Source: Hoylesella shahii DSM 15611 = JCM 12083 (GTDB lineage Bacteria > Bacteroidota > Bacteroidia > Bacteroidales > Bacteroidaceae). Taken from it: a DNA stretch of 64,000 nucleotides. Under the pieces are notes generated by a model. The model did no database searches and had not been told where the DNA came from. It saw only the letters and a program-made list of their open reading frames with translations. This document shows positions 317 through 27,339 of the stretch, piece after piece. The stretch lies in assembly GCF_000613445.1 (NCBI RefSeq), contig NZ_BAIZ01000007.1, positions 1 to 64,000 of the forward strand, written 5' to 3'. Each line of letters starts with the position of its first letter. Within the stretch, counting starts at the first letter, position 1. Both the position numbers and the translations under genes were made by a program.

Positions 317-1588
317 TTACGTGCCTAGATAAAACAACGACAGCACTGCGCCATAATAACGAAATCCCTTTTCGGTGATTTGCACCCTTTCCCCTCCCTC
401 GCTGATGCAAACCAAGCCTTCGTGTAGACAGAATGTAAGTGCTTCGTGCACGCGTCTTTGCCACTCTGAGTCGTTAACGGCTAGCACTTTGGCCAACGAA
501 AACGAGCCGAAATAGCCCGATATGGCGATATACTTAGCCACCAATTGGGTTTGTGGCAATTGATAAACATCTGCTTCGGCGTATGTATCTTGCCGAATGA
601 AGGCGCTAAGCTGCGAACTGTTTTTACCGCAATTGTATGCAATGCCCTCTTTACTCATGCTCTGTGCAGAGAGCCCGAACCCTTTATACGACGCACCATG
701 CACCATTCGCGCCCTTAAATACGAGGACACTCCAAGGTCGGTTTTGCTCAACGAAAAGGTGTTTTGCCCAAATTGCGCATGATAACCAAGAGCTATAAGT
801 GCCTCGTAATAACGGCGGTAGGCATGATAAAGTTGTTCCTTGGTTGGCACATCTTTATGGGCAAGCATATTTGTACGCAATTCGTAGAGCGTAATTTGCT
901 GGGGCATAAGTTGGGCAATGGCATGCAAGTCGCGTGCTATTGTCGCCTCTCCTTGCCCTTTGAGTCCATACATCAGGTCGATATTGATTTTCTCTAATCC
1001 CGCCCGATAAGCCTCGTTCATCCACTTAGCCATAACCGCTTGGGCCACAATTTCACGATGATGGGAAGAGAGAATCCCCACATCGGCCGACTGAACACCG
1101 AGTGATATCCGCCTTATGCCACTGCGTGCCATGCGCTGAAGCTTTTCTGGAGTAAGGGTGTTGAAGGTGGCTTCAATGCTGGGTTCGTAATCGTTGGCCA
1201 AAGTAACACCTTCCACTGCCTCATCGTACACATCCATCAGCCTACTGAAATTGTCTTGCGACAACGCTGTGGGGGTGCCTCCACCGAGGTCGAATCCCTG
1301 CAACTCCATGCCAGGATGCCCCTTCTTAAACTGAGCAATGTCGTTGGCCAGCACCTCAAGGTAATGCGTTTGCAACTGCACATCTGTGCAAACCATGCGG
1401 GTGTATTCGCAAAACAAACACAATTGTTTGCAAAATGGGATGTGAATGTAAAAAGATAAGGCTTTATCTTGCGCGAACGACAGGGGTGCGAGCACACGAT
1501 AGTCTATCCAATCGCATGGCGACAAAGGATAAGAGGTATTGAATTGGGGGTTGTGTTTTCTTGCCTCAAAAACAGTTTTTATGCTCAT
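317..1588 (-). CDS. HemN/HemW-like radical SAM protein
   Basis: A 423-residue radical SAM enzyme of the coproporphyrinogen-oxidase-like (HemN/HemW) family. The 4Fe-4S motif CxxxCxxC is at C53, C57 and C60 (HIPFCKQLCLFC). A GGGTPT SAM-binding motif is near residues 102-107. The C-terminal 70 residues look like the HemN winged-helix tail. I chose the ATG at 1588 because it lies one base after the TGA of the preceding radical SAM gene (TGA-G-ATG), which implies translational coupling; a longer frame reaches 1660. HemN-like proteins include true oxygen-independent oxidases, the haem chaperone HemW, and specialised methylases or cyclases. The motif does not tell these apart. The operon setting with another radical SAM enzyme argues against housekeeping haem synthesis. 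The fold is certain and the reaction unknown. Confidence 0.88.
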   Translation of the reverse strand: MSIKTVFEARKHNPQFNTSYPLSPCDWIDYRVLAPLSFAQDKALSFYIHIPFCKQLCLFCEYTRMVCTDVQLQTHYLEVLANDIAQFKKGHPGMELQGFDLGGGTPTALSQDNFSRLMDVYDEAVEGVTLANDYEPSIEATFNTLTPEKLQRMARSGIRRISLGVQSADVGILSSHHREIVAQAVMAKWMNEAYRAGLEKINIDLMYGLKGQGEATIARDLHAIAQLMPQQITLYELRTNMLAHKDVPTKEQLYHAYRRYYEALIALGYHAQFGQNTFSLSKTDLGVSSYLRARMVHGASYKGFGLSAQSMSKEGIAYNCGKNSSQLSAFIRQDTYAEADVYQLPQTQLVAKYIAISGYFGSFSLAKVLAVNDSEWQRRVHEALTFCLHEGLVCISEGGERVQITEKGFRYYGAVLSLFYLGT

Positions 1589-1589
1589 C

Positions 1590-2468
1590 TCAGTAGATAA
1601 TATTATGCTGATGAAAACCTTGGCGAAGATATTGACCATCGAAAACCAGTGACGAGGCACAGTAAGTGGGATCGGAATAGTTGCGCATGTAGATCTCTAA
1701 TATCTTCAAATTTTTGTTATACAGATAGTTGCTACACTTGCAATGCGCACCGCGATTCATCGAATTGGTGAAATACACATGTGGAATTTTCTCCCAAAAA
1801 ATCTCTTCTAGGTCAACAAAATGGTCGCAGCAATATTGATTTAGTTTCATCAACGCCACAAAGCCAATGCGTGGCACACCCAGTGACAGTGCGAAATCTA
1901 ACATGCGGTGGGCCTCTTGTGCATTGTCGATGTAGCCCCGAATCAAGTTGCAGCTAACATTTACCTTTTGCATATCGACACCTTCGAACCTGAAAGCATC
2001 GGGCGTAATGGTGCAACCATACAACTGCGAGAGTGCCGATGCCTGGTAATGATGCAACGACATGGAAATACTATCCCATCGCGAATGCGTCATAAGCTGT
2101 TGCGATTGAGACAAAAGGCCGTTAGTATTGAGATGCATGTGAATATTTGAAAATTCGGGCTGCTCCATCATCTGCAATATCTGCTGCACCAAAGGCGACA
2201 CCATAGCCGGTTCGCCCCCTGTGATATTCAGCCTATTGAGCATAATGCCACGGTTGTGCAATTCGAAGATTACAGCCGAAAGTTTATCTAACCTGAACGC
2301 CGATTGCGGATGAGGGCTTGCTGCATTGGAACAGAATTGGCAATGTGCATTGCAACCTTTAGTTACCTTTACAAAGATATTTACCTGTGGCGGAATGGGT
2401 TTACCAGGCTCATCAATGAGATTGCAACCCCTATGTTTAAGCAAAATGTGCTTACCAAAAATTTCCAT
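1590..2468 (-). CDS. Radical SAM protein
   Basis: About 292 residues, with the radical SAM signature CxxxCxxC at C39, C43 and C46 (KGCNAHCQFC) and a GGEPA motif near residues 84-88. The protein is short and I see no SPASM cysteine cluster after the core. It is therefore unlikely to be a sulfatase-maturating enzyme, although two Ser-type sulfatases lie elsewhere in the window. The ATG at 2468 is preferred over a TTG at 2513. It overlaps the end of the upstream gene by 17 nt, and the next gene starts one base after this stop, so all three genes form one translationally coupled unit. Substrate unknown; it could modify a peptide or small molecule together with the HemN-like partner. Confidence 0.85.
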   Translation of the reverse strand: MEIFGKHILLKHRGCNLIDEPGKPIPPQVNIFVKVTKGCNAHCQFCSNAASPHPQSAFRLDKLSAVIFELHNRGIMLNRLNITGGEPAMVSPLVQQILQMMEQPEFSNIHMHLNTNGLLSQSQQLMTHSRWDSISMSLHHYQASALSQLYGCTITPDAFRFEGVDMQKVNVSCNLIRGYIDNAQEAHRMLDFALSLGVPRIGFVALMKLNQYCCDHFVDLEEIFWEKIPHVYFTNSMNRGAHCKCSNYLYNKNLKILEIYMRNYSDPTYCASSLVFDGQYLRQGFHQHNIIY

Positions 2469-3924
2469 TTCTATTGTAGGCCCTATTACGGTTGATAAAT
2501 TCGGTTTTTTCAATCATGCTAGGAAAGCTTAATCGCCCAACATACTTATCAAACACGGGTCTATCAAAATCTTTCATGGGCACGTAATACCTCTTGCTCA
2601 AAATTTGATACTCTCCCTCTTCTACTTTCTTGTCCAAGATGGGCTTCACAGCATAAAACTCAAACTTTTGATTAAACGCAAGGGACGAAGAGTCCAGACA
2701 GCTTTTGCGATAGGTTCGAGCCATATTGTCCTCAATATATATTGGCGCAGTGCCACGCGCTATAGGTCGATATATGCCAAAAGAGCAACGGTCGTCGTCG
2801 CGAAAACTTTCTTCGATAACGGCTCGAATACCTTTTTGAGCTAACTCTTCTTGATGGTTGGTAAACATCACCTGCTCCAAGAGGTCGTTGTTGAGCACAC
2901 CTTCTACGGTTAACTTAGGCCATAAATTTAACAAGCACCCAACAAAGCTTTTTGTTGGCGTGGGGTCGGGTCCGCCATAGTCATCAGAAAGATTTGCAGG
3001 TTGGTTGCCCTCTTCACCATTCATCACGAGAGAAAGATCGTGTTGCAGGTCCTTAATGTTGTTATATCTGCAAATATCGTTGAGTAATTGCACTATATCC
3101 ACCAGCTTAGCGCACATACGCCGCGTGTAAAGTCTGTCTATACTAGCGAATTTATCGGCTATAAAATGGTTATCAAGCAATTTATCAAACTGTTCTACAT
3201 TAAATTTTCCATCACGAAAAAGTTTTTCGGCATATGCTTCTAGCGTGTTAACCACCAGGTTTGCAGCCTCAACATCAAACCCTTTTCTACGCTTGTAGTC
3301 TTTAATAACCTGCTCTAAATCGTTTTTTAAGTCTTTATATCGGCCATAATGATACTGTGTGTTAAGTGTCTTTACCACATCAGCCAAGGTTCGGCATTGA
3401 CCATATTTAGCCAAGCGATAAGACTTGGGAGCCTTAATAGCAGGATAGGCTGCAATGTGGCGCACAAACAATTTAGGCAGACACACATTGGGCAAGTGTA
3501 CAGCATTGACAAAAAGCTGAGCTACCAAGTTCACATCAAGCTGGTTAGAACCTATACCTGCCATGGATACATAGAAAAATGTGTCGGGATGTTGACGGGC
3601 ATAATCAATAAACTCGTTAACATATGGCCAATTACTACCCACAGAATAACCGATAATGGGTATGGAATAACTTTGACCTTGCATGCCAACGTACTGTGTA
3701 GCAGTTTCGCCATAAGGCAGTTTTAGGGCGTCAACTGCATCGCCATCAAGAACAACTCTGCTGCAACGAAAAAACACAAACACCTCATCGGCCTTTAAGC
3801 TCTTGAGAAATGCGGGCGTGTGAAGGGGGCGTTGCACATTGCGATACTCTCTAGACGCACTTTTACCAACGATTTTGGTATGAGAAAGCCTATTGAAAAA
3901 GGCGAGTATCTTGTTTATATTCAT
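2452..3924 (-). CDS. A1S_2505-like N-terminal domain protein, 490 aa
   Basis: First gene of the radical SAM trio. Residues of about 45-160 resemble the A1S_2505 family of so-called phage non-structural proteins: a GMQGQSYSIP segment, then a YVNEFIDYARQHPDTFFYVS helix/strand and a GIGSN turn. In family members I remember, that turn reads GCG, so a cysteine appears lost here. The family's biochemical role is not established. Residues of about 170-330 are helical and charged; the rest (to about 490) shows no family I recognise. No signal peptide or membrane segment. The stop overlaps the next radical SAM start. I infer a cytoplasmic partner or substrate-handling protein for the two enzymes. Confidence 0.7.
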   Translation of the reverse strand: MNINKILAFFNRLSHTKIVGKSASREYRNVQRPLHTPAFLKSLKADEVFVFFRCSRVVLDGDAVDALKLPYGETATQYVGMQGQSYSIPIIGYSVGSNWPYVNEFIDYARQHPDTFFYVSMAGIGSNQLDVNLVAQLFVNAVHLPNVCLPKLFVRHIAAYPAIKAPKSYRLAKYGQCRTLADVVKTLNTQYHYGRYKDLKNDLEQVIKDYKRRKGFDVEAANLVVNTLEAYAEKLFRDGKFNVEQFDKLLDNHFIADKFASIDRLYTRRMCAKLVDIVQLLNDICRYNNIKDLQHDLSLVMNGEEGNQPANLSDDYGGPDPTPTKSFVGCLLNLWPKLTVEGVLNNDLLEQVMFTNHQEELAQKGIRAVIEESFRDDDRCSFGIYRPIARGTAPIYIEDNMARTYRKSCLDSSSLAFNQKFEFYAVKPILDKKVEEGEYQILSKRYYVPMKDFDRPVFDKYVGRLSFPSMIEKTEFINRNRAYNRNGNFW

Positions 3925-4497: not shown

Positions 4498-4513
4498 GGT
4501 AACATTTGTTACC
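4498..4513. promoter_or_regulatory. Perfect inverted repeat GGTAAC-N4-GTTACC (operator candidate)
   Basis: Two perfect 6-bp arms are separated by ATTT and sit 21 bp upstream of a TACTTTTG -7 box. That is where a dimeric repressor or activator of the uptake operon could bind. A second imperfect dyad (CCTAC...GTAGG) lies just upstream at about 4470-4486. No regulator is encoded nearby, so the ligand is unknown. Confidence 0.4.
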
Positions 4514-4534
4514 CTTCATGTTGGTTTGCAACTC

Positions 4535-4542
4535 TACTTTTG
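4535..4542 (+). promoter_or_regulatory. TACTTTTG -7 box of the uptake operon
   Basis: Matches TAnnTTTG exactly. The transcript would start near 4549, leaving a short leader to the ATG at 4563. No TTTG element sits at the ideal upstream distance. Confidence 0.5.
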
Positions 4543-4562
4543 CGACAAAATTAGCAAAAAAG

Positions 4563-6851
4563 ATGGACGCACGTTTGAAGCTTGGTTTAGCATTTTGGTT
4601 CACCGTGATGAGTTGCATGGCGGTAAGGCCACCATACCATCTACACCATGCCCTCCCAAACGCCACAGACAACGACAGCACCCAAGCCGATAAGGTACGA
4701 AACACGCTGCCACGCGTGGTAAACCTCAAAGAAGTAAACGTGCTGGCACCCCGACAGCTAACGCAACCCACCGTGGCACAAGCCCTAAACGAGCAACGGC
4801 TCATTGCCGGAAGCACATCGCTGGTGCAGATGTCGCCCCTACGGCAACGGCTGTCCACGCTAAAAGATGCGTTGGCCATGCAACCAGGCGTCATCATCCA
4901 AGAGTTCTTCGGTCTGAACGACCAACCCCGTCTCAACATCCGCGGTTCGGGCATCCAGAGCAACCCACAACGCCGAGGCGTGTACCTGCTGCAAGACGGC
5001 ATACCCGTAAACTTTGCCGACGGCTCGTACATCATCGGCGTGATGGACCCCATGACGGCCCATTTCGTTGAAGTATTTAAAGGAGCCAACGCCCTAAACT
5101 TCGGTGCGAGCACCCTTGGCGGAGCCATCAACTTCGTTTCGCCCACAGCCAATAAGCAACATGGGGCTAACACGCTCGTAAAGGTAGAAGGCGGAAGCTA
5201 TGGTTACAGGGCTGTGGCTGCAAGCATGGGCTACCGCTGGCAAACAAGCGATGCCCACATAAGCACATCGTACAGCGCGCAAGACGGGCACAGGCTTTAC
5301 AACCACAACACCCGATGGAGCATTGCGGCCAACTATGGGCTGCAAAACCTTAATGGGCATGTGGAAAATCGCACATACCTGCACTTCACCTGGCTGAAAT
5401 TCCAGTTTCCAGGGCCACTCAACATGCAGCAACTGATGGACAACCCCAAGCAGGTTAACGCCGGCGTAGACCTTCCTTTCAGCATGGGACCGAACGTTTT
5501 GCGCGATAAGCCACGCCGTTTTGCGCGCATGATACGTGTGGCCAACCGCACGGGCATCCGTTTCAACGCCAACAGCGACCTCGTGGCTGCCGTGTATTAC
5601 CAATATGCTGACGACCAATTTGTGTTCCCCATCACCATTTCCATCCCCCACTCGTACCATCACGATGGCGGACTGACCGTTAGCTACCGCCTCAACACAG
5701 GCAAACACAACCTGCGTGCAGGACTTGTGGCATCGGCAGGACAAATAGATCGCCGCACCTATATCAACAAAGACGGGCTAGAATCGTTTATGTTTGCCCA
5801 CGACAACCTGCAAGCGCGCAACCTGACCCTCTTTGCAGAAGACTTGTTCAGGCTGACGTCGAAACTGAATTTCGTGGCCGATGCCCACCTCGTGTACAAC
5901 GAGCGCAACAGCAGCGACCGCTTTCCACAACCCGACCTTCGGCCGTGGTACAGCCACATGTCGAAAAAGTACCGCTACTTTCGTTCGCAAAGCACAACGC
6001 TCAACCAACACTGGACGGCTTTCAATCCACGCATAGGGCTAATATACAGTCCCTTTAAGGGCCAAGACGTGCAGCTGTTTGGCAACCTAAGCCGAAGTTA
6101 CGAGCCGCCAACCTTCGACGAACTGGTTGGCACAGAGGTAACAACCAACATCAACACCAGTCCTAAGCGGCTTTACGCCATTGCCTTAGACAAGCAAACG
6201 GCCACCACCTTGGAACTGGGAAGCAAGGGACGAACCACACGCTTTTCGTGGAATGTGGCCGCCTACCGTTCGTGGGTACACAACGAAATACTGGAAGTGA
6301 AAGACTACGTACGCGGCATTAAGCGCACCGAAAACTATCCCACAACCTTACATCAGGGTGTGGAAGTGGGGCTAAACGCCGTTGTGGCCGACAATCCTTG
6401 GGGCATAAACGCGGGTAAGCTGACCCTTGGTGGAGTGTACAATTTCAGCGACTTCCGTTTTAGCGGTGGCAAATACCAAGGCAAACGCCTGGCAGGCATA
6501 CCCCAACACTACCTGAACCTGTCGGCCGAATACGAGCATTCGTGCGGTCTTAGCATTGGGGCACAAGTGGAATGGAAACCAGGCGAAACTCCCATCGACC
6601 ACACCAACACCATGTTTCAGCCTGCATACCACGTGTGGAACGTGCGTGCGGCCTACGCACTGGGCAAAAACATCAGCCTGTACGTGGAGATGAAGAACGT
6701 GGCCAACAGCCGTTACGCCTCCAGCTACGTTATCAGCGACGAGATACATAACCCGCCCATCCCCTTCCCCAACTTCTCTGCAAAGCAGATGGCGTTCTTC
6801 ATTCCCGCCCAGCCGCGCTGCATATTTGGGGGCATAACGTGGCAAATGTAG
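4563..6851 (+). CDS. TonB-dependent outer-membrane receptor, FecA-like
   Basis: About 762 residues: an N-terminal secretion signal, a plug domain and a 22-strand barrel expected by family. The plug shows the family hallmarks: a LNIRGSGI motif, then LLQDGIPVNFADGSYIIG and VEVFKGANALNFGASTLGGAINF, which closely follow ferric-siderophore/FecA-type receptors. The barrel has the usual YEPPTFDEL segment (about residue 520). The protein ends in GGITWQM rather than a terminal F/Y/W. I took ATG 4563 because it gives a compact hydrophobic leader; ATG 4518 or TTG 4506 would extend it. It heads an operon with a methyltransferase and lipoproteins. The likely cargo is an iron chelate, haem or another metal complex; the exact ligand is not readable from the sequence. 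Confidence 0.93.
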   Translation: MDARLKLGLAFWFTVMSCMAVRPPYHLHHALPNATDNDSTQADKVRNTLPRVVNLKEVNVLAPRQLTQPTVAQALNEQRLIAGSTSLVQMSPLRQRLSTLKDALAMQPGVIIQEFFGLNDQPRLNIRGSGIQSNPQRRGVYLLQDGIPVNFADGSYIIGVMDPMTAHFVEVFKGANALNFGASTLGGAINFVSPTANKQHGANTLVKVEGGSYGYRAVAASMGYRWQTSDAHISTSYSAQDGHRLYNHNTRWSIAANYGLQNLNGHVENRTYLHFTWLKFQFPGPLNMQQLMDNPKQVNAGVDLPFSMGPNVLRDKPRRFARMIRVANRTGIRFNANSDLVAAVYYQYADDQFVFPITISIPHSYHHDGGLTVSYRLNTGKHNLRAGLVASAGQIDRRTYINKDGLESFMFAHDNLQARNLTLFAEDLFRLTSKLNFVADAHLVYNERNSSDRFPQPDLRPWYSHMSKKYRYFRSQSTTLNQHWTAFNPRIGLIYSPFKGQDVQLFGNLSRSYEPPTFDELVGTEVTTNINTSPKRLYAIALDKQTATTLELGSKGRTTRFSWNVAAYRSWVHNEILEVKDYVRGIKRTENYPTTLHQGVEVGLNAVVADNPWGINAGKLTLGGVYNFSDFRFSGGKYQGKRLAGIPQHYLNLSAEYEHSCGLSIGAQVEWKPGETPIDHTNTMFQPAYHVWNVRAAYALGKNISLYVEMKNVANSRYASSYVISDEIHNPPIPFPNFSAKQMAFFIPAQPRCIFGGITWQM

Positions 6852-17537: not shown

Positions 17538-20138
17538 TTATTCTTTAACGGGCAATACGCTATATCCCCAAGACATGTTTCGGTAAACCGGTATCGAAGA
17601 ACCAGGCCTATGGGTATCGAAAGAATAAGAGCCATTCGCCTTTTTCTTAACCAATCCGATGAGGCCATAATAGCCATAATACGAACCTTCGTTGGCTTTA
17701 TACTTCTCGGAAGTCCAATAATGACCTGCATTATTTTCAACAATACCATTGTGGAACTGTTGCGGATCGATTTTACCAATCGTTGGAGCAAATGCAGGTT
17801 TGCCGTTGTTACCCGCTTTAATCTTTTGGAAATCGACAACGCGTGGAACATGGAATCCAGCCGGAGAGGGGTCGTAAACCGTTTTATAGAACTGACAAGC
17901 ATACTGATAGCCTATGGTGTTGTATGCATCCCATAGGTTAAAGTAGGTTTTGTCAGGGTCGCAATTCTTATTCCAGTCCCAGTTACCCTGATTTGTTGCC
18001 CCCTTATTAGCCAGACGTGGTGTAGCCATCTCCAAGGGATAATAAGCCGCATTTTTCAAAGAGAGTCCACCATTATTTACGTATGGTTGCACAGTAAATG
18101 GGCATCCAGGCCACAGCGGGTCTTTGCGTCCTTGTTGATAGAACATCGACACCCCTTCTCTTATCATTTCACTAGGCTTTTGGGTGAACACAATCTGTGC
18201 TATTTTTTTGCTTCGTTTCTGCATAAAGGTGAGGCGTACTTGGCGGTCTTTGCGATAAGGCGTACCCTCCCAAGCAGTATGGCGGAAGCCTAATGGTTCG
18301 AGCATAAAGTATCCAGAGCTTGTGTTGAGCACGTCTTGAGACGTAATCCATATATGCCAGCTCCATGCAACGCGTTTGGGGCAGCCACAATACGAAACGG
18401 TGATGATGGCACTAGCCTCCCTCATTTTGGTTTTATCAACTTCGAACTCAACAAAACCGCTGCACACATTACCACCATTGCTAATGGTTACCAGTCCGGG
18501 TTCGCTGCACCAAGCCACTTGTGCCCTATCAATGCCTTTAATTTGATATCCATTGATATTGCCACGCCCTTCTTGGAAGATACCCAATACGCTATTGCTA
18601 GCAGTTACGTTAGGTCTGTACGCATGGCGATTGTCTTGCCCGTTTTGTAAGGCATTGCCATAAACCAAGGGGAACTTGTACTTACCACCGGCCGAAACCA
18701 CATAGCAGTTGGCCGTATTTCGTTGTCCACAAGCATTGATAGAGAGGTCTTTTCTTGTTGTTACCTCAGGGGCAGACTGCAATTGCGCCTCGCGTTCAGC
18801 CTTAAAATCTTTATAATCGTAGGTCAATCTTAGATTGCAAGCCTCGGCTACAGAACCGCCAGCCCCCTGTTCGGTAACCGAAGCCACCATAGAAGGTTTG
18901 CCTGTGGTCCAGTTTACGCCATCCTCGCTATATTCGTACTTAGAGACTTCCCATGCTTCGGCCTTATCGCGACTACCATCAGGATAGCCTTTCAGTCGGC
19001 TAAAACTCTGCACAGTAAAAGGAATGTCGAGTTCGTTATACTTTCTTGTGGTGACGCCATCGCCCAAATCGGTGGTAGGCGTGATAGAAAGTTCGAAATC
19101 GCGGTCGGATAAGTCGCTGCTGTTTGATATGGTGTAGACCCTAGTTGTGCCTTCAGTCCACTTTTTACCAGCTCCACCTATTTTAGCAGTCCAGTATTTA
19201 CCACTTTCGAAAGTGATTTTAATCATCGCGGCATCGGGTAGCACTTGAGGAATCATAAAGAACGTGCCATCACCTCCATTAATCACCACGCCAGGGTTTT
19301 GAGCCGTTGAGAAGGGTGGATTTAAAGTGAGTTTGTAGTTCTTTAAGCTGCTTCCAAGCACCCAAGCCTTATTAGCCACATCGTATTTAGCATCGCCAAT
19401 AACGCCTAAGATTTCGATTGTTTTCACCTTTTGATTATAAGATAGGTCGTTACCAATCTTAAATTGTATGGCCGTTGTGGCATGCGAGAACACTAGAGGT
19501 ATTTTCTTACCGTCGAAGTCGTCGTATTGCAAGATGTTCGTTGAAGCAACCAGGAAGTCGGTTTGCTGTTTAGCATCGGCCTTTGGTTCGAACTGCACGA
19601 TAGGACTTTGCCCCACGGTCGACTTCAAATCGACAGCATCTACAGCGGGATGTACGGCAAAGAATTTCAGCGCAGGGGCATCAGTCTTGTGCCATTGCAC
19701 AGGGTTAACCATTGAGCCATCAGCGTTTACCTTCTCATTATACATATAATCCACTGTAGCTCCGCCATTTTTGCTAGCGAAGATAGAGAAGGGTTTGTTG
19801 ATGCCAGCGAAGTTAACCGTTGTGGTAATCGTTCCTCTTGTTGCAGCAGAAGCCTGCATGGGCAACACCCCTTCTATAGTGGTTTCTACCAATTGAAGTC
19901 CCTTTGCCTCGTCGCCTTCGATGGGTGTGGCATGCGATTGCCACACCGAGGCAGCTCTCGACTTGCCAGTATTCGCGCCCTTACCAACGTTTTGCACATC
20001 GGACACGCTAAAGCTAACGCGTTCGGTAGATGAGTTTTGTTCTAATTGTTTGTCGATGTCGCTACAAGCGGCTACGACTAATGATGTCAAGCCTATGCAG
20101 CCCGCCATCAATGCTAAGTGTAAATTTCCTGATTTCAT
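17538..20138 (-). CDS. Mfa-like/FISUMP surface lipoprotein, cassette 1 (866 aa)
   Basis: Lipoprotein signal MKSGNLHLALMAGCIGLTSL... with lipobox VAAC (Cys25). Residues of about 60-340 match the Bacteroidota Mfa-like fimbrillin fold: an AATRGTITT strand, FSIFASKNGG, LVFSHATTAIQFKIG, then FFMIPQVLP. The C-terminal 150 residues are a FISUMP-type module (fib_succ_major): WDAYNTIGYQY...KTVYDPSPAGFHVPRVVDF...GHYWTSEK. The TRG site resembles the Arg cleavage position used in P. gingivalis-type fimbrial maturation. A surface adhesin or fimbrial tip/anchor is likely. It is closest to cassette 2 (shared QNPGVV and TTDLGDG segments). A 64-residue micropeptide is encoded just upstream. Confidence 0.88.
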   Translation of the reverse strand: MKSGNLHLALMAGCIGLTSLVVAACSDIDKQLEQNSSTERVSFSVSDVQNVGKGANTGKSRAASVWQSHATPIEGDEAKGLQLVETTIEGVLPMQASAATRGTITTTVNFAGINKPFSIFASKNGGATVDYMYNEKVNADGSMVNPVQWHKTDAPALKFFAVHPAVDAVDLKSTVGQSPIVQFEPKADAKQQTDFLVASTNILQYDDFDGKKIPLVFSHATTAIQFKIGNDLSYNQKVKTIEILGVIGDAKYDVANKAWVLGSSLKNYKLTLNPPFSTAQNPGVVINGGDGTFFMIPQVLPDAAMIKITFESGKYWTAKIGGAGKKWTEGTTRVYTISNSSDLSDRDFELSITPTTDLGDGVTTRKYNELDIPFTVQSFSRLKGYPDGSRDKAEAWEVSKYEYSEDGVNWTTGKPSMVASVTEQGAGGSVAEACNLRLTYDYKDFKAEREAQLQSAPEVTTRKDLSINACGQRNTANCYVVSAGGKYKFPLVYGNALQNGQDNRHAYRPNVTASNSVLGIFQEGRGNINGYQIKGIDRAQVAWCSEPGLVTISNGGNVCSGFVEFEVDKTKMREASAIITVSYCGCPKRVAWSWHIWITSQDVLNTSSGYFMLEPLGFRHTAWEGTPYRKDRQVRLTFMQKRSKKIAQIVFTQKPSEMIREGVSMFYQQGRKDPLWPGCPFTVQPYVNNGGLSLKNAAYYPLEMATPRLANKGATNQGNWDWNKNCDPDKTYFNLWDAYNTIGYQYACQFYKTVYDPSPAGFHVPRVVDFQKIKAGNNGKPAFAPTIGKIDPQQFHNGIVENNAGHYWTSEKYKANEGSYYGYYGLIGLVKKKANGSYSFDTHRPGSSIPVYRNMSWGYSVLPVKE

Positions 20139-20167
20139 TGCCTTAACTTTTAAATTTGATGGACTGG

Positions 20168-20362
20168 TTACGGATACATGGGTGTAGACGTAGAGCCACC
20201 AGACGAGTCGAAAGTGTCGCCATCTAAGTCTTCTTCTCCTCCGTCGTCGTAATCACCTACCGATACGTTAACTCCTGAATGGCCCGAAGCGGCCAAAATA
20301 GATTCTGCCCCCATAAGTATGTGCGTCTTAATACTGGGCAAACAATACTCTTTCTTAATCAT
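20168..20362 (-). CDS. Micropeptide, cassette 1 (64 aa, GDYDDGGEEDLDGDT motif)
   Basis: Starts at ATG 20362 (an upstream TTG is less likely) and ends 29 nt before the cassette 1 lipoprotein. N-terminus MIKKEYCLPSIKTH, then an alanine-rich hydrophobic bit (ESILAAS), then Gly/Asp-rich DYDDGGEEDLDGDT, then a Ser/Gly/Thr tail. The same order (MKKxYxxP, small hydrophobic segment, GDGGxxxLDGxT) appears in three sister peptides. No known domain; the acidic motif could bind Ca2+ or serve as a recognition tag. Confidence 0.72.
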   Translation of the reverse strand: MIKKEYCLPSIKTHILMGAESILAASGHSGVNVSVGDYDDGGEEDLDGDTFDSSGGSTSTPMYP

Positions 20363-20536
20363 AATCAATTACTTCTACTCTCTATACATTAATTTACCTA
20401 TCCCGAAAGATGCAACACTTTTATAAATTTGGCTTAACGCTTCCAAACAACGGAAGATGCCTGGGCTTTGATACGTCAAGAAATCAGCCTAACTTTGTGT
20501 CGCGAAAAGTTGCTGTGTTAATTCTCTGTACGTATG

Positions 20537-20544
20537 CAAAGTTA
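20537..20544 (-). promoter_or_regulatory. TAACTTTG -7 box of cassette 1
   Basis: An exact TAnnTTTG match on the minus strand, about 175 nt upstream of the micropeptide ATG. The identical octamer occurs at a similar distance in all four cassettes. Confidence 0.7.
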
Positions 20545-20726
20545 AGAATAAAACAGAGACAGTTACGCATTTGGAAACACTATTTCATGTAAAAGAAAAA
20601 ACAGAACAAAACTTACGGAAATCGCTACATGGATTTTTAGGTTCGTTTACAAATAGCATTGAATGTTAACCACTTACAATCATGCATCACACCTTAAACA
20701 AGCATCGAAGTAGGGGTATAAAAAAA

Positions 20727-20756
20727 CAACTGCACACTACCAGTAGTATGCAGTTG
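20727..20756 (-). terminator. Terminator of fimbrillin cassette 2
   Basis: CAACTGCACACTAC / GTAGTATGCAGTTG stem with a 2-nt loop, followed on the minus strand by TTTTTT (20721-20726). It lies 41 nt past the cassette 2 stop. Confidence 0.9.
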
Positions 20757-20797
20757 TGAATGGTTTTCTTAGAAAACCAAATTAAAGTGATGGTACG

Positions 20798-23455
20798 TTA
20801 TTGCTTGATTGGGAGAACATTATAACCAAATCGAGTATCCGTATAATACTGAGCATTCCTTTGTATCTCTAAATCGTTATCGTTTATTGCGTACGCGTGC
20901 ACTGCTGCAAACATCCAAGTACGATTATGAAGCACATACACCTTTTCGCTAGTCCAATAATAACCATGGAGATTGCCTTGATATACAGGTTTATTACCAT
21001 CAGTTCCACCTTCTGGATGTATATAGCCCAATCTTAGCGCAGCCCTTCTTCTGCCTTCTGTAAGTTTTGAGAAGTCGGCAGCCCTTGGTATATGGAAGCC
21101 AGCAGGGCTAGGGTCGTAGATGGTTTTAACAAAAGTACTGGTGTTATGTCCCATATATCCAGTTGCATTAGCATCCCAAAGGTTCAAATAAGTACATTCT
21201 TTAGCAGGGTCGTTGTTCCAATCCCACGTGCTTCCCCATTTCTCATGGCCGTCGGGATCAGTGCCCAAGGCACTATAGAACGCTCTTCTGTTACCCATTT
21301 TCATTGGTTCCTGCACAGCTTGAGCCAACGTCATACCACCATAAAACGCCCTATCAGAAGAAGTTAAATACATTCCTGGCCAATAAGGGTCTTTACGTCC
21401 CCATTGATAGAACATAGCCTGTCCTTGAGCTTGCTCAAAATAAGGTTTCTGAGTAAATGTTACTTTAACTTCTTTACCTGTTCGAGTTTGCTTAAATGTA
21501 AGTCTTATTTTGCGATCATCCGAATAAGTTGTACGTTTCCACTTCGATGGTACAAAGCCAAGAGGTTCGCGCAAGAATTCTCCACTCCTCACTCCAACAA
21601 CGTCTTTGCCAGTAATCCAGATATGCCAAGACCAAGCAACCTTTTTATTCTTCCACACGGCGATAATGGCATTTCCCGTTTCGATGTTGTCTTTAGCTAC
21701 CTCGAACTCAATATAAACATTGCGTCCACCCTCAGCACCAAATGATTTCCCTGCACGGTCTATCCCCGTTACCTTTATTAGTCCAGGCTTGCTTTGCCAC
21801 AATACAGATGCGACGTCTACCCATTGATGAATATCAGGATAGGGAATTTCATACTTTCCTGCTCCTTGATTTACACCACCTTTGAAATGTTTCAATACCA
21901 TTCCGTCGTTACGGGTGTTATTATTCCAGAAAGACTCCGTAGCATCCGCGTCATTAACTCTACTGCTACCATAGAACAAGGGGAACTTATATTTTCCAGG
22001 AGCAGAAACGATGTAGCAGTTAGCTGTATTTTGCTTACCATCAACCATTGAGAGGTCTTTTCTTGTGGTAACTTCGTCGGCATCTTTTAGTTGTTTGTTG
22101 CGATAGGCCACAAAGTCTGTTAGTTCATTGGTAAACTCAAGGTTGCACAACTGCGGTGCTGTACTACCATTACCTCTATCTGTTACAGAAACAAGCATAC
22201 TGGGTTTTGTGGTTGTAACCCCCATTGCGGGGTCGTTGCCATCCACGTATTCGTATTTAACAATCTCCCAAGGTTCTTTCTTGTCACGCGAATCATTTGC
22301 ATAACCTTTTAAACGGCTATAGCTTTGAACGGTGAAAGGAACACTCAGCTGATTGTACTGTCTAACAGTTGTGCCATCACCCAAATCTGTGGTAGGAGTA
22401 ACGGTAAATACAATATCGCGATCGCTCTGATCGCTGGAGTTTGAGATTGAATAAGTTCTGGTTGTTCCTTGAACCCATTGCTTATTATTGCCACCAATCT
22501 TGGCATGTACCCGCTTGCCACTTTCAAAATAGATATTAACTGCAGCATCATTAGGCAAGGTTTGAGGAATCATAAAGAAGACACCATCGCCACCATTCAT
22601 CACTACGCCTGGGTTTTGCGCGGTAGAGAAGCCTGGATTAAGCTCTAGTGTATAGCTTTTCTTATCTGTGTCCAGCGTCCAAGTTCCGTTAGCCACATCG
22701 TATGTGCCACTACCAATAACGCCAACAATTTCGATTTTCTTCACTACTTGATTGTAAGAAAGGTCGTTACCTATCTTAAATTGTATAGCCGTTGTGGCAT
22801 GTGAGAACTGGATTGGAACTTTTTGGTTTACGTAATCATCGTATTGCAATGTGTTTGTCTTTGCAACCAAAAGGTCGGTTTGCTGTTTGGCATCTGCGTT
22901 GGGAGCAAACTTAATAATGGGATTTTGCCCCGAAACGGTGGTAAGATTTGCAACATCAACAGCTGGATGAACAGCATAAAACTTGAGCGAAGCGGCGTCT
23001 GCCTTGCGCCATTGCACAGCGTTTACCATCGTACCATCAGCATTTACTTTCTCATTATATAAATAGTTGGCCACAGGACCACCGTTTTTGCATGCGAAAA
23101 TAGAGAAAGGATTGTTGAGTCCCTGGAAGTTTAACGATGTGGTTACTGTTCCGCGAGTGGCTGCAGGGATGTAGATGGGGTTAACACCTTCAATGGTTGT
23201 CTCTACCAACTCCAATCCTTCAGCATCGTCGCCAGTAATTTTGCTGGTCTGCGTTTCATAAACCGACAGCGCTTTGGTTTTAGGAAGCGACGTTGAATCC
23301 ACTGTGTTCTGCACATCAGTAACGCTAAAGCTAATTCCATCGATTGGTTTATTCTGAACTAGTTCTGTTTCGTTGTCACTACAACTACTCATAACAGCCG
23401 ACGACAAGCCCATAAGGCCAACCGCCAAAACAAATAATAAGTTTTTTGATTTCAT
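20798..23455 (-). CDS. Mfa-like/FISUMP surface lipoprotein, cassette 2 (885 aa)
   Basis: Lipobox VMSSC after a hydrophobic leader, then SDNETELV. The Mfa-like part has the AATRGTVTT strand, FSIFACKNGG, IQFSHATTAIQFKIG and FFMIPQTLP. The C-terminal FISUMP module has WDANATGYMG...KTIYDPSPAGFHIPRAADF...YYWTSEK. It is closest to cassette 1, while the middle region (about residues 470-600) is diverged. Cell-surface adhesin or fimbrial subunit is the expected role. Preceded by a 54-residue micropeptide gene. Confidence 0.88.
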   Translation of the reverse strand: MKSKNLLFVLAVGLMGLSSAVMSSCSDNETELVQNKPIDGISFSVTDVQNTVDSTSLPKTKALSVYETQTSKITGDDAEGLELVETTIEGVNPIYIPAATRGTVTTSLNFQGLNNPFSIFACKNGGPVANYLYNEKVNADGTMVNAVQWRKADAASLKFYAVHPAVDVANLTTVSGQNPIIKFAPNADAKQQTDLLVAKTNTLQYDDYVNQKVPIQFSHATTAIQFKIGNDLSYNQVVKKIEIVGVIGSGTYDVANGTWTLDTDKKSYTLELNPGFSTAQNPGVVMNGGDGVFFMIPQTLPNDAAVNIYFESGKRVHAKIGGNNKQWVQGTTRTYSISNSSDQSDRDIVFTVTPTTDLGDGTTVRQYNQLSVPFTVQSYSRLKGYANDSRDKKEPWEIVKYEYVDGNDPAMGVTTTKPSMLVSVTDRGNGSTAPQLCNLEFTNELTDFVAYRNKQLKDADEVTTRKDLSMVDGKQNTANCYIVSAPGKYKFPLFYGSSRVNDADATESFWNNNTRNDGMVLKHFKGGVNQGAGKYEIPYPDIHQWVDVASVLWQSKPGLIKVTGIDRAGKSFGAEGGRNVYIEFEVAKDNIETGNAIIAVWKNKKVAWSWHIWITGKDVVGVRSGEFLREPLGFVPSKWKRTTYSDDRKIRLTFKQTRTGKEVKVTFTQKPYFEQAQGQAMFYQWGRKDPYWPGMYLTSSDRAFYGGMTLAQAVQEPMKMGNRRAFYSALGTDPDGHEKWGSTWDWNNDPAKECTYLNLWDANATGYMGHNTSTFVKTIYDPSPAGFHIPRAADFSKLTEGRRRAALRLGYIHPEGGTDGNKPVYQGNLHGYYWTSEKVYVLHNRTWMFAAVHAYAINDNDLEIQRNAQYYTDTRFGYNVLPIKQ

Positions 23456-23523
23456 TTACTCGTTTATTACTTTATCAATCACTAAAAAAATAACAAGTTG
23501 CACAAAGAAGAACGATACACACA

Positions 23524-23688
23524 CTATGGTGTTACTGTTTCTCCATCCAAATCTTCAACTCCACCATCTCCAAAATCATCTATTTCTGGAGTTGTCTTTA
23601 CGTCTGTGCCACTACCAGCCAAAATAGGTGTTGTTCCTTCAACAAGATGCGTCTTGACCGAAGGAGCATAATACGTTTTCTTCATCAT
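23524..23688 (-). CDS. Micropeptide, cassette 2 (54 aa)
   Basis: Found by reading the region upstream of the cassette 2 lipoprotein: ATG 23688 (or the adjacent ATG 23685) to TAG at 23524-23526. The product starts MMKKTYYAPSVKTHLVEG, has ILAGSG, and ends DDFGDGGVEDLDGETVTP. It aligns with the other three micropeptides through MKKxYxxP and GDGGxxDLDGxT and sits 68 nt before the lipoprotein start. At 54 residues it falls below common annotation cut-offs. Its presence makes the micropeptide/lipoprotein pairing complete in all four cassettes. Confidence 0.72.
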   Translation of the reverse strand: MMKKTYYAPSVKTHLVEGTTPILAGSGTDVKTTPEIDDFGDGGVEDLDGETVTP

Positions 23689-23871
23689 AATTTAATACTT
23701 CTCTTAATTTATTACTCTAAAATCTCTATATATTACTCTCAAATGCCACAACACTTCAATACTATTCTTAGCATCCAATCAACAAAACGCAATACTAGAT
23801 GCTAATATAAAAAAGCGTATCTACTAACAATGTGTTGCGAAAAACATTCAGCTGTACCTTACAAACGAATG

Positions 23872-23879
23872 CAAAGTTA
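23872..23879 (-). promoter_or_regulatory. TAACTTTG -7 box of cassette 2
   Basis: Exact TAnnTTTG element on the minus strand, about 184 nt upstream of the micropeptide ATG, as in its sister cassettes. Confidence 0.7.
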
Positions 23880-24164
23880 TAAACATTTTTTAAACGCCAC
23901 CAATATATTATGTCATTATTTCTAAACTAAGGAAATAGCGAACAGCAATGAAGAAATAAGTGATAACCATATTAACAGCTCTCATTAAACTTGCTGAATA
24001 TTAACAATTAGAGCCACAACATTTCGCACTCTGCACATCAACAACAACTAACAACACAAATCTAATCACTCAAATTTTTAAAACGCCACATCATCTCCTC
24101 AAGAAACGCGCCACAACACCGTTTCATTGGCCCACCCACAGACACACACTTCACCCCAAAACAA

Positions 24165-24212
24165 CAAGAACAACAACTGCACACTATAAGCAGCATGCAG
24201 TTGTTGTTCTTG
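24165..24212 (-). terminator. Terminator of fimbrillin cassette 3
   Basis: A long stem: CAAGAACAACAACTGCA with its perfect complement around an 14-nt centre. It carries the same CAACTGCA/TGCAGTTG core as the other cassette terminators. The downstream T-run on the minus strand is interrupted (TTGTTTTG). Confidence 0.85.
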
Positions 24213-24266
24213 CTAGGGCCAAACAATTGTATTAACCCTTTATATAATATGAGTGTGTTCGACTTA

Positions 24267-26807
24267 TTATTCTTTCACAGACAATAGGCTGTAGCCAAAA
24301 TAGGGATGTCCTTTGTCATAAGGAGGTTTCCAGACATCTAAGTATTCACCCGACGCATACACAGAAGCACCATACACAGCATAGTTATCCGAAGGTGAGA
24401 AAATCTTATCACTACTCCAGAAATATGCATTACCTAAACGATTTTGAAGCACATGAATCGCCTCTGGATGTAAATATCCTAAAAACGGAACCAATACTTT
24501 ATTGCCACCATTGTTAGGATTCAACTTAGAATATTCGCTTCTTCGTGGCACGCGGAAGCCAGCAGGACTTGGGTCGTACACGGTCTTTACAAACTCACCG
24601 CCATATCCTAAGCCCACATTGTTTTTACCATCCCAAAGATTAAGATAACTATTATTCTCACCTGGGTCGTTATTCCAGTCGAGAAAGCCCCTACCATTGC
24701 TTCTTAAGTTACGATAATTTGCCATCAGCAGCGGCTGTTGTACTGTCTCCTTTAAAGTCATACCGCCATTTTGAGTAAAAGTTTGAGCCGAGAATTCGTC
24801 AGCATCACACAATGGGTCTTTACGTCCAAGCTGATAATACATGGCATGTCCTTCCACCATTTGATGCGGTTTTTGGGTGAAAGTAAGTTCAGCTGTAGTT
24901 CCAGTTCTTTCTTGTTTGAAGATAACAGTCACCTTTCTATCTGTATCGTATGTTGTTTTCCACCACTTAGTATGTCTAAATCCCAATGGCTCGCGCATAA
25001 AATAGCCCCTATTTGTTGTAGCCACTTCGGGTGCAGTAATCCAGATATGCCAGCTCCAACATATGGTATTGCCTTTCTTCAAGGCAATAATTGCACTAGC
25101 CTCACACATTTTCGTCTGGTCAACTCTAAATTTCACGAAGCGATTTTTCCCACTAGACTTTGTCACTCCCGCTGCAGTTACGAGCCCTGGAGTACTTTGC
25201 CACAACACCTCCACCTTATCACCAGCGGTAATATCGGGTTCAGTAATCGGGCCAGTACCATGGAAAAACTGAGCTAAAACGTTTCCACCCGTTCCTCCTG
25301 GCTTATAAGCAGCAGTGTTTGTTTTGCCATCTTTCTTTGCATTACCATATACAGCGGGGAACATATACTCGCCACCAGCCGACACAATATAGCAGTTGGC
25401 CGTTTCCACCTTACCATTTGGTTGTATAGAAAGGTCTTTTGGCGTTACAGAAGGCGTTGCATTTCTCAGCGAGTTGTTTCTAGCGCCAAGTACATCTTTA
25501 TAATCTGTCTTTATTCTCACCTTATAAATGTCGGCTCCTCTTTCTGTAATCAAAACGGGTTCGAGCTTAATCATATCACTAACATTGGTTGTGATAGGCG
25601 CACCACCATCTATACGGTATCCACTAACCGACCATCTTTCTTTCACATCGCGAGTTGTGTCCTTAACAAGCCCCTTTAAATGTCGGTAACTTTCAATTTT
25701 AATCGTGGCTGTAGAGTCGTTGTAGGTAAGTATTTTATTACCCTTAGCACCCACAGAGAGCACAAAGTCTCGGTCTTGCATATCCTTACTGTTAGCAATA
25801 GTGTAGGTTTTTGTCATACCAGCTACCCACTTTTTACCACTTCCACCAATCTTAGCCGTCCAATATTTACCGCTTTCAAAGGTTATTTTTATCATTGCCT
25901 CAGTTGAGAGTTCTTGCGGAAGCATAAAGAACAAGCCCTTATCTACATTTATTAATGTGTTGACTTGCTGTGCTGTGGGATACACAGGGTCGAATGTTAG
26001 CTTAAAGTCTTTGTCTGCTCCATTTAACGTCCACTGCCTAGTTGCAGCGTCGAACGTACCCTCACCCTTAACCTTTAAAATCTCAATTGTTTTAATTTTC
26101 TGATTATAAGAGAAGTCGCGACCTATCTTAAATTGTATAGCCGTTGTTACATGCGTAAAGTTAATGGGCACAACACTATTCTTCACGCTATCAAACTTCA
26201 AGTCTTTAGTACCAGCCATCAGCAAGTCCACCTGATTTTCTGCATCAGAGGCAACTGTAAAATTAAACCTTGGTCGCTTGCCCAACGAAGTATCCATATC
26301 GTCGTTTTCAACAGCAGGGTGCACAGCATAGAACGTAACCGACTCTGCATCGCCTTTAGTCCATCTCATAGGCTTAACCATCGTACCATTAGCATTCACC
26401 TTTTCGTTATGAATATAATCGGCAACTTGAGAGCCATTTTTACAAGCGAAGATTGAGAAAGGCTTGTTCATGCTGGCAAAATTATCCTTGCTCGTTAATA
26501 TTCCGCGAGTAGGAACAACATTATCCATTGTGGCAATGCCCTCCACAGCGGTTTCAACCAGCTCTAATCCCTCTGCTCCATCGCCCTCAATGGGCACAGC
26601 GCGCGTTTCACCAGCGGCAAAAGCCACATTGCGAGGTAAAAAATTAGCATCGGGCATGCTTTGCACACCCTGCAAATTAAATCGAATACAGTCGGCCGAA
26701 TAAACGCGTCCTGCTTCAGAATCGTTGTCGTTACAAGCAGCGACAAACAAAGATGTGAAGCCTACTAGGCTCACCATCAACATAGAAAATAAAGTTTTTG
26801 ATTTCAT
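24267..26807 (-). CDS. Mfa-like/FISUMP surface lipoprotein, cassette 3 (846 aa)
   Basis: Lipobox FVAAC (Cys25) followed by NDNDSEAG. The Mfa-like part shows PTRGILTSKDNFAS, FSIFACKNGS, INFTHVTTAIQFKIG and FFMLPQELS. The FISUMP module shows WDGKNNVGLGYGGEFVKTVYDPSPAGFRVPRRSEY...YFWSSDK. Closely related to cassette 4 through LPRNVAFAAGETR, LELVETAVEG and the NSKD/QDRDFVLSVGAK block, so the array looks like two pairs. Expected surface adhesin or fimbrial component. A 22-bp repeat tract lies between it and its micropeptide. Confidence 0.88.
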   Translation of the reverse strand: MKSKTLFSMLMVSLVGFTSLFVAACNDNDSEAGRVYSADCIRFNLQGVQSMPDANFLPRNVAFAAGETRAVPIEGDGAEGLELVETAVEGIATMDNVVPTRGILTSKDNFASMNKPFSIFACKNGSQVADYIHNEKVNANGTMVKPMRWTKGDAESVTFYAVHPAVENDDMDTSLGKRPRFNFTVASDAENQVDLLMAGTKDLKFDSVKNSVVPINFTHVTTAIQFKIGRDFSYNQKIKTIEILKVKGEGTFDAATRQWTLNGADKDFKLTFDPVYPTAQQVNTLINVDKGLFFMLPQELSTEAMIKITFESGKYWTAKIGGSGKKWVAGMTKTYTIANSKDMQDRDFVLSVGAKGNKILTYNDSTATIKIESYRHLKGLVKDTTRDVKERWSVSGYRIDGGAPITTNVSDMIKLEPVLITERGADIYKVRIKTDYKDVLGARNNSLRNATPSVTPKDLSIQPNGKVETANCYIVSAGGEYMFPAVYGNAKKDGKTNTAAYKPGGTGGNVLAQFFHGTGPITEPDITAGDKVEVLWQSTPGLVTAAGVTKSSGKNRFVKFRVDQTKMCEASAIIALKKGNTICWSWHIWITAPEVATTNRGYFMREPLGFRHTKWWKTTYDTDRKVTVIFKQERTGTTAELTFTQKPHQMVEGHAMYYQLGRKDPLCDADEFSAQTFTQNGGMTLKETVQQPLLMANYRNLRSNGRGFLDWNNDPGENNSYLNLWDGKNNVGLGYGGEFVKTVYDPSPAGFRVPRRSEYSKLNPNNGGNKVLVPFLGYLHPEAIHVLQNRLGNAYFWSSDKIFSPSDNYAVYGASVYASGEYLDVWKPPYDKGHPYFGYSLLSVKE

Positions 26808-26835
26808 GTCCTTGTCATTTAATTCATGGTTTTCA

Positions 26836-26911
26836 CGAGTTCATCATGGGTTCACTTCGAGTTCATCATGCATTGACTTCGAGTTTATCATGGTTCATCA
26901 TGGGTTCACAT
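26836..26911. repeat. 22-bp tandem repeat between micropeptide 3 and lipoprotein 3
   Basis: Two full units CGAGTTCATCATGNNTTNACTT (26836-26857, 26858-26879) and two partial ones. The sequence contains repeated TTCATCATG words. It lengthens the micropeptide-lipoprotein spacer to 156 nt, against 29-115 nt in the other cassettes. Confidence 0.75.
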
Positions 26912-26963
26912 GTATTTCTTACGTGCCTGTCATGGATTAATTATAGGTTTATTTTGGAAAGTG

Positions 26964-27152
26964 TCAAGGGTTTCCGTGTGTTGAATTACCGTGTCCATCT
27001 GAAGTATCGCCATCCAAATTGTCTTCACCACCATCTCCAGGAGGTACAACCCCAGGGGTAAATCCTGTCCCTTTGGAAGGTTCTAGCATTGATACCAACC
27101 CTGGAACAAGAATTATCTCGATACAGGGCAAATCATATTTTCTCTTTTTCAT
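26964..27152 (-). CDS. Micropeptide, cassette 3 (62 aa, GDGGEDNLDGDT motif)
   Basis: N-terminus MKKRKYDLPCIEIILVPG, a short hydrophobic middle, then PPGDGGEDNLDGDT and a Gly/His/Asn-rich tail ending THGNP. The closest relative is the cassette 4 peptide. No signal peptide cleavage pattern is obvious and no known domain is recognised. The gene lies 156 nt upstream of the cassette 3 lipoprotein and behind a TAACTTTG promoter. Confidence 0.72.
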   Translation of the reverse strand: MKKRKYDLPCIEIILVPGLVSMLEPSKGTGFTPGVVPPGDGGEDNLDGDTSDGHGNSTHGNP

Positions 27153-27331
27153 AATTCGTTTCTTATTACTCTCTTTTAATAGTCTTAATCTATTGATTTA
27201 ATCTGCAACACTTTACTAAACTAACACTATATAACATCAAATTCCTTTGACCTTTTTGCGATGTTAATCGGTCTACATATCCACTTAACATCGTGTTGCT
27301 TAATATGATAAGTACATACGAGACACCGTTG

Positions 27332-27339
27332 CAAAGTTA
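27332..27339 (-). promoter_or_regulatory. TAACTTTG -7 box of cassette 3
   Basis: Exact TAnnTTTG element on the minus strand, about 180 nt upstream of the micropeptide ATG. Confidence 0.7.

Follow-up and report, generated by a model that had tools for sequence, protein, structure and literature searches.

We analysed a 64,000-nucleotide stretch of DNA from Hoylesella shahii DSM 15611 = JCM 12083 (contig NZ_BAIZ01000007.1, positions 1 to 64,000; hereafter the window), which carries near its start a trio of closely linked genes coding for two radical S-adenosylmethionine (SAM) enzymes, here called rSAM1 and the HemN-like protein, and a 490-residue partner protein. The trio is a real, rare yet conserved and apparently undescribed gene set. 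As to its function, we see about an even chance that it constitutes a dedicated radical-SAM protein-maturation system, in which the substrate is the product of the gene next to rSAM1 and which, in the Bacteroidales, is tied to ADP-ribose.

All three genes lie on the minus strand and are transcribed in the order partner (2452..3924), rSAM1 (1590..2468; 292 residues, starting at an internal ATG) and HemN-like protein (317..1588; 423 residues). The partner and rSAM1 genes overlap by 17 bases and a single base separates rSAM1 from the HemN-like gene; since the window and its contig (C136) begin at the same base, the region downstream of the HemN-like gene is out of view. The initial annotation of this DNA described three genes that overlap or lie one base apart, with two CxxxCxxC radical SAM motifs and a 490-residue partner, and both the open reading frames (ORFs) and Pfam agree with it. 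The motifs read CNAHCQFC in rSAM1 and CKQLCLFC in the HemN-like protein (C53-C57-C60, 1409..1432, minus strand; at least 95% conserved in 63 family sequences), and the two enzymes belong to the Radical SAM superfamily, with Pfam Radical_SAM scores of 42.8 and 45.8 bits, respectively (cut-off 29.5). In addition, rSAM1 matches Fer4_12 (27.3 bits, cut-off 22). These generic models are the only ones above cut-off for the trio: none of the three proteins reaches any NCBIfam cut-off, including those of named pathway families, in keeping with the earlier statement that no nameable pathway fits. Thus, rSAM1 scores 48.5 bits against MoaA (TIGR02666, cut-off 284.05), 37.3 against viperin (NF038283, 180) and 36.4 against HxsC (TIGR03977, 267.9), while the HemN-like protein scores 143 bits against its closest model, STM4012 (NF006067, 380), and 122.6, 126.2 and 125.5 bits against HemN (324.95), HemW (205.4) and ChuW (400). 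The N-terminal part of the partner falls slightly under the cut-off of A1S_2505_Nterm (NF049995; 43.9 bits, cut-off 45). Among PADLOC models, rSAM1 matched viperin-type ones only (pVip, 41.5 bits, a model without a stated cut-off), the HemN-like protein matched one at 11.5 bits, and the partner matched none.

Of 398 genomes of the genus, 15, counting the own genome, contain rSAM1 at E ≤ 1e-12 (genome G305 was judged via the plasmid record L046, whose match lies at the same position). As the partner and the HemN-like gene accompany it in all 15, the arrangement is not due to chance. A profile search of 395 phylum-wide genomes (E ≤ 1e-30) matched the own genome alone, which marks the trio as rare; Prevotella sp. 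E2-28 carries one copy on its 205-kb plasmid, pE2-28. A pattern scan of GTDB species genomes with an alignment of 18 rSAM1 sequences gave 78 loci among the best 80, comprising Bacteroidales-type loci (L061-L114), loci from metagenome-assembled genomes of Clostridia and Bacilli (L115-L120) and weak, unrelated matches (L121-L138); because the last rows of the scan were weak, the strong loci within reach of these patterns were probably all recovered. Dropped before counting were the weak, unrelated matches, two loci in which no rSAM1 ORF was picked (L104, L114), repeat contigs (L165-L170, L175, L177, L179-L181), L173, which is the same gene as L172, and distant loci (L182-L229), 26 of which served as controls. 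Two loci labelled Kiritimatiellae (L111) and Oscillibacter (L106) were counted as Bacteroidales-type; the rSAM1 of the latter groups with a Muribaculaceae row, so that its contig was probably wrongly binned.

This survey revealed 53 Bacteroidales-type loci, that of the window among them, in which an rSAM1 ORF is present; the partner is found in 49 of these, lying within 60 bases of rSAM1 in 45, and the HemN-like gene in 52. One of the two genes is missing from L081, L093, L097, L109 and L111, and in L093 and L097 a contig end truncates the locus. Gene order is mostly that of the window, with the HemN-like gene first in L087 and L090, and the Bacteroidales-type rSAM1 rows form one clade in a 78-row tree (support 100/100). 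A HemN-like gene is also present at all six Bacillota loci. Conservation of the trio, a point on which the reading in the initial annotation depended, is borne out by its neighbourhoods. The gene set is undescribed among the matches listed in a literature search, as judged by titles and abstract openings, with most subscription papers and preprints outside that search; the main text of a study mining Bacteroidales for ribosomally synthesised and post-translationally modified peptides (RiPPs; PMC10352776) makes no mention of HemN.

Six cysteines of rSAM1 are invariant across 29 sequences drawn from Bacteroidales, Bacillota and viral contigs. Three form the radical SAM core motif C39-C43-C46 (2331..2354, minus strand), and three lie outside it: Cys15 (codon 2424..2426, minus strand) and the two cysteines of C243-x-C245 (1734..1742, minus strand). 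A structural model of rSAM1 (mean predicted local distance difference test score, pLDDT, 89.6) has its best fold match in MoaA, the GTP 3',8-cyclase, over its full length (Z 19.6, 260 residues), followed by tetraether synthase (Z 17.8) and a viperin-like enzyme (17.2), and it also resembles the peptide maturases SuiB (16.8), CteB (5why; 15.6) and SkfB (15.1). Despite this fold, rSAM1 differs from MoaA in its family scores, which are far from the cut-off of 284 both for the window protein and for its Bacillota relative in L115 (58.8 bits), and in its additional cysteines: MoaA has a C-terminal CxxC-x13-C, whereas rSAM1 has C15 and a CxC. By analogy with MoaA and with thioether-forming maturases, we infer that C15, C243 and C245 may ligate an additional cluster in which one site is left free.

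Relatives of rSAM1 were also found in viruses. Searches with tblastn identified near-full-length relatives (27-32% identity) in four records from uncultured phages, 635-735 kb in size; two of these records are equally long and give the same match. Two scans of viral contigs gave further loci. The phage association proposed in the initial annotation, which had been drawn from the N-terminal part of the partner, thus stands through rSAM1 and not via the A1S_2505 domain only. A search of 14 phage records, covering the three huge ones in full and several contigs that may be fragments, gave no HemN-like gene, although in the own genome the same query picks up genes only 26-29% identical to it.

Every one of the first 21 loci has, upstream either of rSAM1 or of a HemN-like gene preceding it, a small gene for a protein of 82-211 residues whose last residue is cysteine and whose tail is mostly rich in Ser, Gly or Arg. 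Over all distinct phage and Bacillota loci, a Cys-ending small gene (81–211 residues) was found near rSAM1 in 25 of 27 (26 of 28 were L173 to be counted), the later loci with such a gene being L172, L174, L178 and L171, where two lie in tandem; a second, tandem Cys-ending gene of 81 residues is present in L144. Since several rows are near copies (L145/L147/L149 and L117/L119 were kept among the 27), the loci are not independent. Under the same wide filter as for the first 21 loci, only 1 of 109 other genes of these loci had a Cys-ending neighbour, and under a strict adjacency filter the proportions were 19 of 21 against 0 of 109, the failures being L144 and L150 (gap of about 150 bases; broken rSAM1). 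Other ORFs of 80-250 residues at these loci end in cysteine in 5 of 294 cases, including the L144 tandem gene. Among 26 distant viral radical SAM controls, an adjacent Cys-ending ORF was seen only at L188, and non-adjacent ones at L191 and L226. The L188 gene (L188:5650-6858) lies beside a 93-residue protein ending GWGC and possibly belongs to a remote second branch. With L188 set aside, the terminal cysteine is preceded in 16 of 24 family tails by another one, 6-12 residues from the end and often within a DPCGxGG-like sequence.

A small substrate peptide near the enzymes had been envisaged in the initial annotation. Phages and Bacillota offer such a candidate beside rSAM1. With regard to a putative RiPP-type precursor gene adjoining its enzyme, 25 of the 27 loci above have a Cys-ending small gene nearby (19 of the first 21 under strict adjacency), whereas at the Bacteroidales loci no separate small Cys-ending gene was seen and the neighbour is a large protein, so that the likely substrate there is the partner. 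Many phage proteins share a short, similar N-terminal motif (e.g. MIKTFDEFINE) that recalls the capsid-targeting leaders of T4 internal proteins; a loose pattern, applied without a control, gave 8 of 32 ORFs in L047, 6 of 30 in L048, 5 of 27 in L049 and 4 of 29 in L145, and the Cys-ending protein of L049 has such a start. An ADP-ribosyltransferase-like reading of a small upstream phage gene (L047, L148, L174) comes from inspection by eye: none of the three matched Pfam, and the L047 protein, the one scanned against NCBIfam, had no match there.

The partner combines exchangeable N-terminal domains with a shared C-terminal part. Its ORFs range from 292 to 792 residues, and the 52 distinct partners (including both of L077, the plasmid copy L046 and that of the window) match A1S_2505 in 39 cases (window included), DUF1810 in 9, ADP-ribosylglycohydrolase in 3, an FtsZ-like domain in 3 and an MreB-like domain in 1 (E ≤ 1e-4), where a single partner may bear two of these domains. 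Three of the 52, presumably the ADP-ribosylglycohydrolase ones, match the Tri1 model NF041672, and six Prevotella partners (L032, L046, L057-L060) consist of the C-terminal part alone. In L079 (7940-9988) an MreB-like domain is fused to an apparent macrodomain remnant and in L096 (7830-10001) an FtsZ-like domain lies between macrodomain and C-terminal part, arrangements that suggest domain exchange. Relatives of the window partner score well against NF049995 (147.4 bits for L064, 146 for L085), and a structural model of the L064 partner (mean pLDDT 86.5) was used for fold searches. With Foldseek, macrodomains mostly rank first for its A1S_2505 domain, at E values of 0.02 and above (best 0.023); with VIA-align, the domain matches a macrodomain with Z 10.8 over 130 residues at 3.2 Å, TARG1 and DarG ADP-ribosylhydrolases give Z 10.7 and 10.5, and the listed rows are, by title, nearly all macrodomains with a few designed proteins. 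The A1S_2505 domain is accordingly predicted to have a macrodomain fold, as judged from the L064 relative rather than from the window protein, and it is this fold that makes ADP-ribose the theme of the system. These searches bear on the N-terminal domain and barely cover the C-terminal part; the absence of a family from the structural tables does not exclude it; the partner profile found nothing useful among PDB sequences.

In the window, the A1S_2505_Nterm-matching stretch spans residues 62-153 (3466..3741) and the conserved C-terminal part residues 167-490 (2455..3426), both on the minus strand. In the family, the latter measures about 300 residues, is modelled in L064 as helices followed by a small beta region, and contains an internal duplication of helices (matched to itself in HHalign, probability 92.8, E 4e-7); searching 60 genomes with it gave a single match beyond the own genome, in a trio carrier (G009). 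Two of its cysteines are conserved. Cys380 (codon 2785..2787, minus strand; CHPEV in relatives, CSFGI in the window) is cysteine in 94% of ungapped rows among 54 C-terminal parts and in at least 90% in alignment A5, while Cys409 (2698..2700, minus strand; KSCGEGKGP in relatives, KSCLDSS in the window) is cysteine in 42 of 42 ungapped rows of 45 and in every ungapped row among the 54. In the modelled stretch of L064 the two cysteines are numbered 364 and 400. The complete motif letters are less constant, with CHP in 29 and CGEG in 22 of 41 rows. Eleven of the 52 distinct partners themselves end in cysteine, as against 2 of 414 other ORFs of at least 200 residues, although the eleven are related in groups and hence not independent. 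The partner is also the fastest-evolving member of the trio: over 1191 pairs its median identity is 36.7%, compared with 60.2% for rSAM1 and 47.1% for the HemN-like protein, and it falls below rSAM1 in 1106 pairs and below the HemN-like protein in 1011, these identities being those of the best local alignment between partners that differ in architecture. A PqqD-like hint in partner L077 (E 0.16 and 0.055) was too weak to use.

The window copy of the partner is atypical. It has FFRC at the FGSN site (FGSN in 32 of 36 ungapped rows) and GDAV at the GGAA site (GGAA in 31 of 35), CSF in place of CHP and CLDS in place of CGEG, and its last residue is not cysteine. Its nearest relative, L061 (on the same contig as L050), has an rSAM1 74% identical to that of the window and a partner with an extra DUF1810 N-terminal domain, of which no remnant was seen by eye in three frames over the 600 bases upstream of the window partner. 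The enzymes therefore look intact and the partner altered, raising a real possibility, though one we lean against, that this copy, its partner devoid of active motifs, is decaying or has changed function. Set against decay, all three frames are open and compact, and both conserved partner cysteines and the invariant residues of rSAM1 are retained.

How might such a maturation system work? In phages and Bacillota the substrate would be the small protein, with its often Ser-, Gly- or Arg-rich tail and terminal cysteine; in Bacteroidales it would be the large partner, with the two conserved cysteines of the shared C-terminal part. The core cluster of rSAM1 would cleave SAM, the free site of an auxiliary cluster on C15, C243 and C245 would bind a substrate cysteine, and the deoxyadenosyl radical would oxidise a nearby residue to give a cysteine-centred change, for example a thioether. 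The HemN-like enzyme may add a second change in cells, its place possibly being taken in some phages by a nearby RlmN-like radical SAM gene, and the matured partner would then carry out a task connected with ADP-ribose, the nature of which would depend on its N-terminal domain. We favour the neighbour as the substrate of rSAM1 because of its position, its conserved cysteines, the maturase-like fold of the enzyme and the faster evolution of the partner; its role, the auxiliary cluster, the reaction and the final task are drawn from the gene linkage, conserved cysteines, domain swapping and predicted folds.

Several points weigh against this proposal. The terminal cysteine is lacking from 41 of 52 partners, including that of the window; the C-terminal part is predicted to be a folded domain rather than a loose tail; and two loci, L176 and its relative L164 (the second rSAM1 of the 735-kb phage), have rSAM1 and no Cys-ending gene. 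A final cysteine also occurs in 6 of 77 rSAM1 proteins, all ending IIC or VIC, and in 2 of 63 HemN-like proteins (L091 and L094, ending YNRPC and YNRSC), so that it is not by itself a mark of a substrate. The idea that the small proteins are clear homologues of the C-terminal part was rejected (HHalign probability 3.3, E 0.013), and because homology is not detectable their equivalence is argued from position and cysteines. Furthermore, the best fold match of rSAM1, MoaA, acts on a nucleotide, and neither a transporter nor a protease nor a recognition element came to light, no systematic search for these having been made.

The nucleotide substrate of MoaA brings in a different explanation, in which the enzyme pair makes or remodels an ADP-ribose- or NAD-derived (nicotinamide adenine dinucleotide) compound, which is built on the Cys-ending small protein as carrier and bound or cleaved by the partner. 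We consider this rather unlikely, with real weight nonetheless given the MoaA-like fold of rSAM1, the NAD genes nearby and an aminotransferase. To the full-length MoaA-like fold and the high similarity to viperin must be added the neighbourhoods: within 5 kb, the 53 Bacteroidales-type loci include NUDIX/NrtR genes in 10, stand-alone ADP-ribosylglycohydrolases in 6, Sir2 in 4, DUF1810 in 4, macrodomains in 2 and NadR in 1, while the 15 phage loci include NadR in 6. An RlmN-like radical SAM gene is also present at this distance in 6 of the phage loci (78 bits against RlmN for that of L140, cut-off 290). PnuC genes are found at 6 loci by protein clusters and Pfam, and an aminotransferase cluster adjoins the enzyme pair in L109, L111 and L112 (the L112 member being DegT/DnrJ by Pfam). 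Farther out in the same loci, which served for comparison in place of a genome-wide background, NUDIX and glycohydrolase genes are rarer; DUF1810 is not, stand-alone copies occurring at 4 loci in 497 kb near the trio and as 3 genes in 325 kb farther out. Such chemistry alone, however, leaves the near-constant C-terminal cysteine and the FtsZ-like and MreB-like partners unexplained, and the enzymes reach the cut-off of no nucleotide-pathway model. A plainer reading, in which ordinary heme or molybdopterin enzymes happen to stand beside an unrelated gene, would account for HemN-type and MoaA families being the nearest named; we regard it as very improbable and rejected it, as the scores are far under the cut-offs, the own genome has two other genes matching the HemN-like protein (26-29% identity), and the genes are linked in both Bacteroidales and Bacillota.

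A further explanation, unlikely as it stands and compatible with protein maturation, is immunity against ADP-ribosylation, with partners that reverse the marks or mimic the targets of toxins and an enzyme pair that arms or reads the C-terminal part. The array of N-terminal domains, including the three Tri1 matches, the fast evolution of the partner and a microbial PARG gene that overlaps the HemN-like gene of L111 by four bases all point this way. FtsZ is reportedly the target of an ADP-ribosylating toxin whose immunity protein is a glycohydrolase (work ascribed to Ting et al. 2018), and for this reason FtsZ-like and MreB-like partners suggest decoys. Against it, ADP-ribose domains are common, PADLOC has nothing for the partner and only the viperin-type match for rSAM1, and the decoy idea concerns four proteins. 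A bolder and still less probable combination would be an ADP-ribose conflict system, in which a radical-SAM cysteine modification activates the shared C-terminal module and the exchangeable N-terminal domains sense ADP-ribosylation, some as erasers (macrodomain, glycohydrolase of the DraG/Tri1 type, possibly DUF1810) and others as toxin-target decoys (FtsZ-like, MreB-like), while huge phages deploy the same radical enzyme with Cys-ending proteins of their own, some beside NAD salvage genes. NadR-based NAD salvage in phages is described in PMC9503650.

The closest known systems share some features with the trio and differ in others. The His-Xaa-Ser (Hxs) system has paired radical SAM maturases, HxsB and HxsC, beside a presumed peptide substrate, and the rSAM1 of a phage locus (L145) scores best with the peptide maturase HxsC (53.8 bits); however, the HxsC cut-off of 267.9 is far off, HxsB gives rSAM1 24.6 bits (cut-off 370) and is not among the matches of the HemN-like protein, and the small-protein tails described here end in cysteine. 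The STM4011/STM4012 system likewise couples two radical SAM proteins, and HemN-like members score best with STM4012 (153.7 bits in L115, as well as in the window), without reaching the cut-off of 380, in a comparison made on the STM4012 model; no paper found by full-text literature search names this system. The partner, as seen in L064, resembles TARG1/DarG macrodomain hydrolases and A1S_2505 proteins in its N-terminal domain, differing in its fusion to the C-terminal part and, in the window copy, in lacking macrodomain motifs. Similarly, three partners match ADP_ribosyl_GH in the manner of Tri1/DraG immunity proteins, but these glycohydrolase domains are fused to a macrodomain and the C-terminal part and linked to radical SAM enzymes, and no toxin gene was identified.

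Elsewhere in the window, a TonB-dependent receptor-like gene (4506-6851) lies upstream of the trio in divergent orientation, and a TonB receptor encoded next to PnuC and NadR on a phage contig has a match among the window genes within 5 kb. Farther along, four adjacent minus-strand genes (17538-30414; 846-885 residues, 40-58% mutual identity, lipoprotein-like N-termini by eye) form a local paralogue family.

If protein maturation is indeed the function of the trio, it would join radical-SAM chemistry on proteins with ADP-ribose biology, both in gut bacteria and in phages of up to 735 kb. The near-constant C-terminal cysteine offers a ready substrate and site for testing, and a single shared module that is joined in turn to FtsZ-like, MreB-like, macrodomain or glycohydrolase domains poses the question of what role that module plays.

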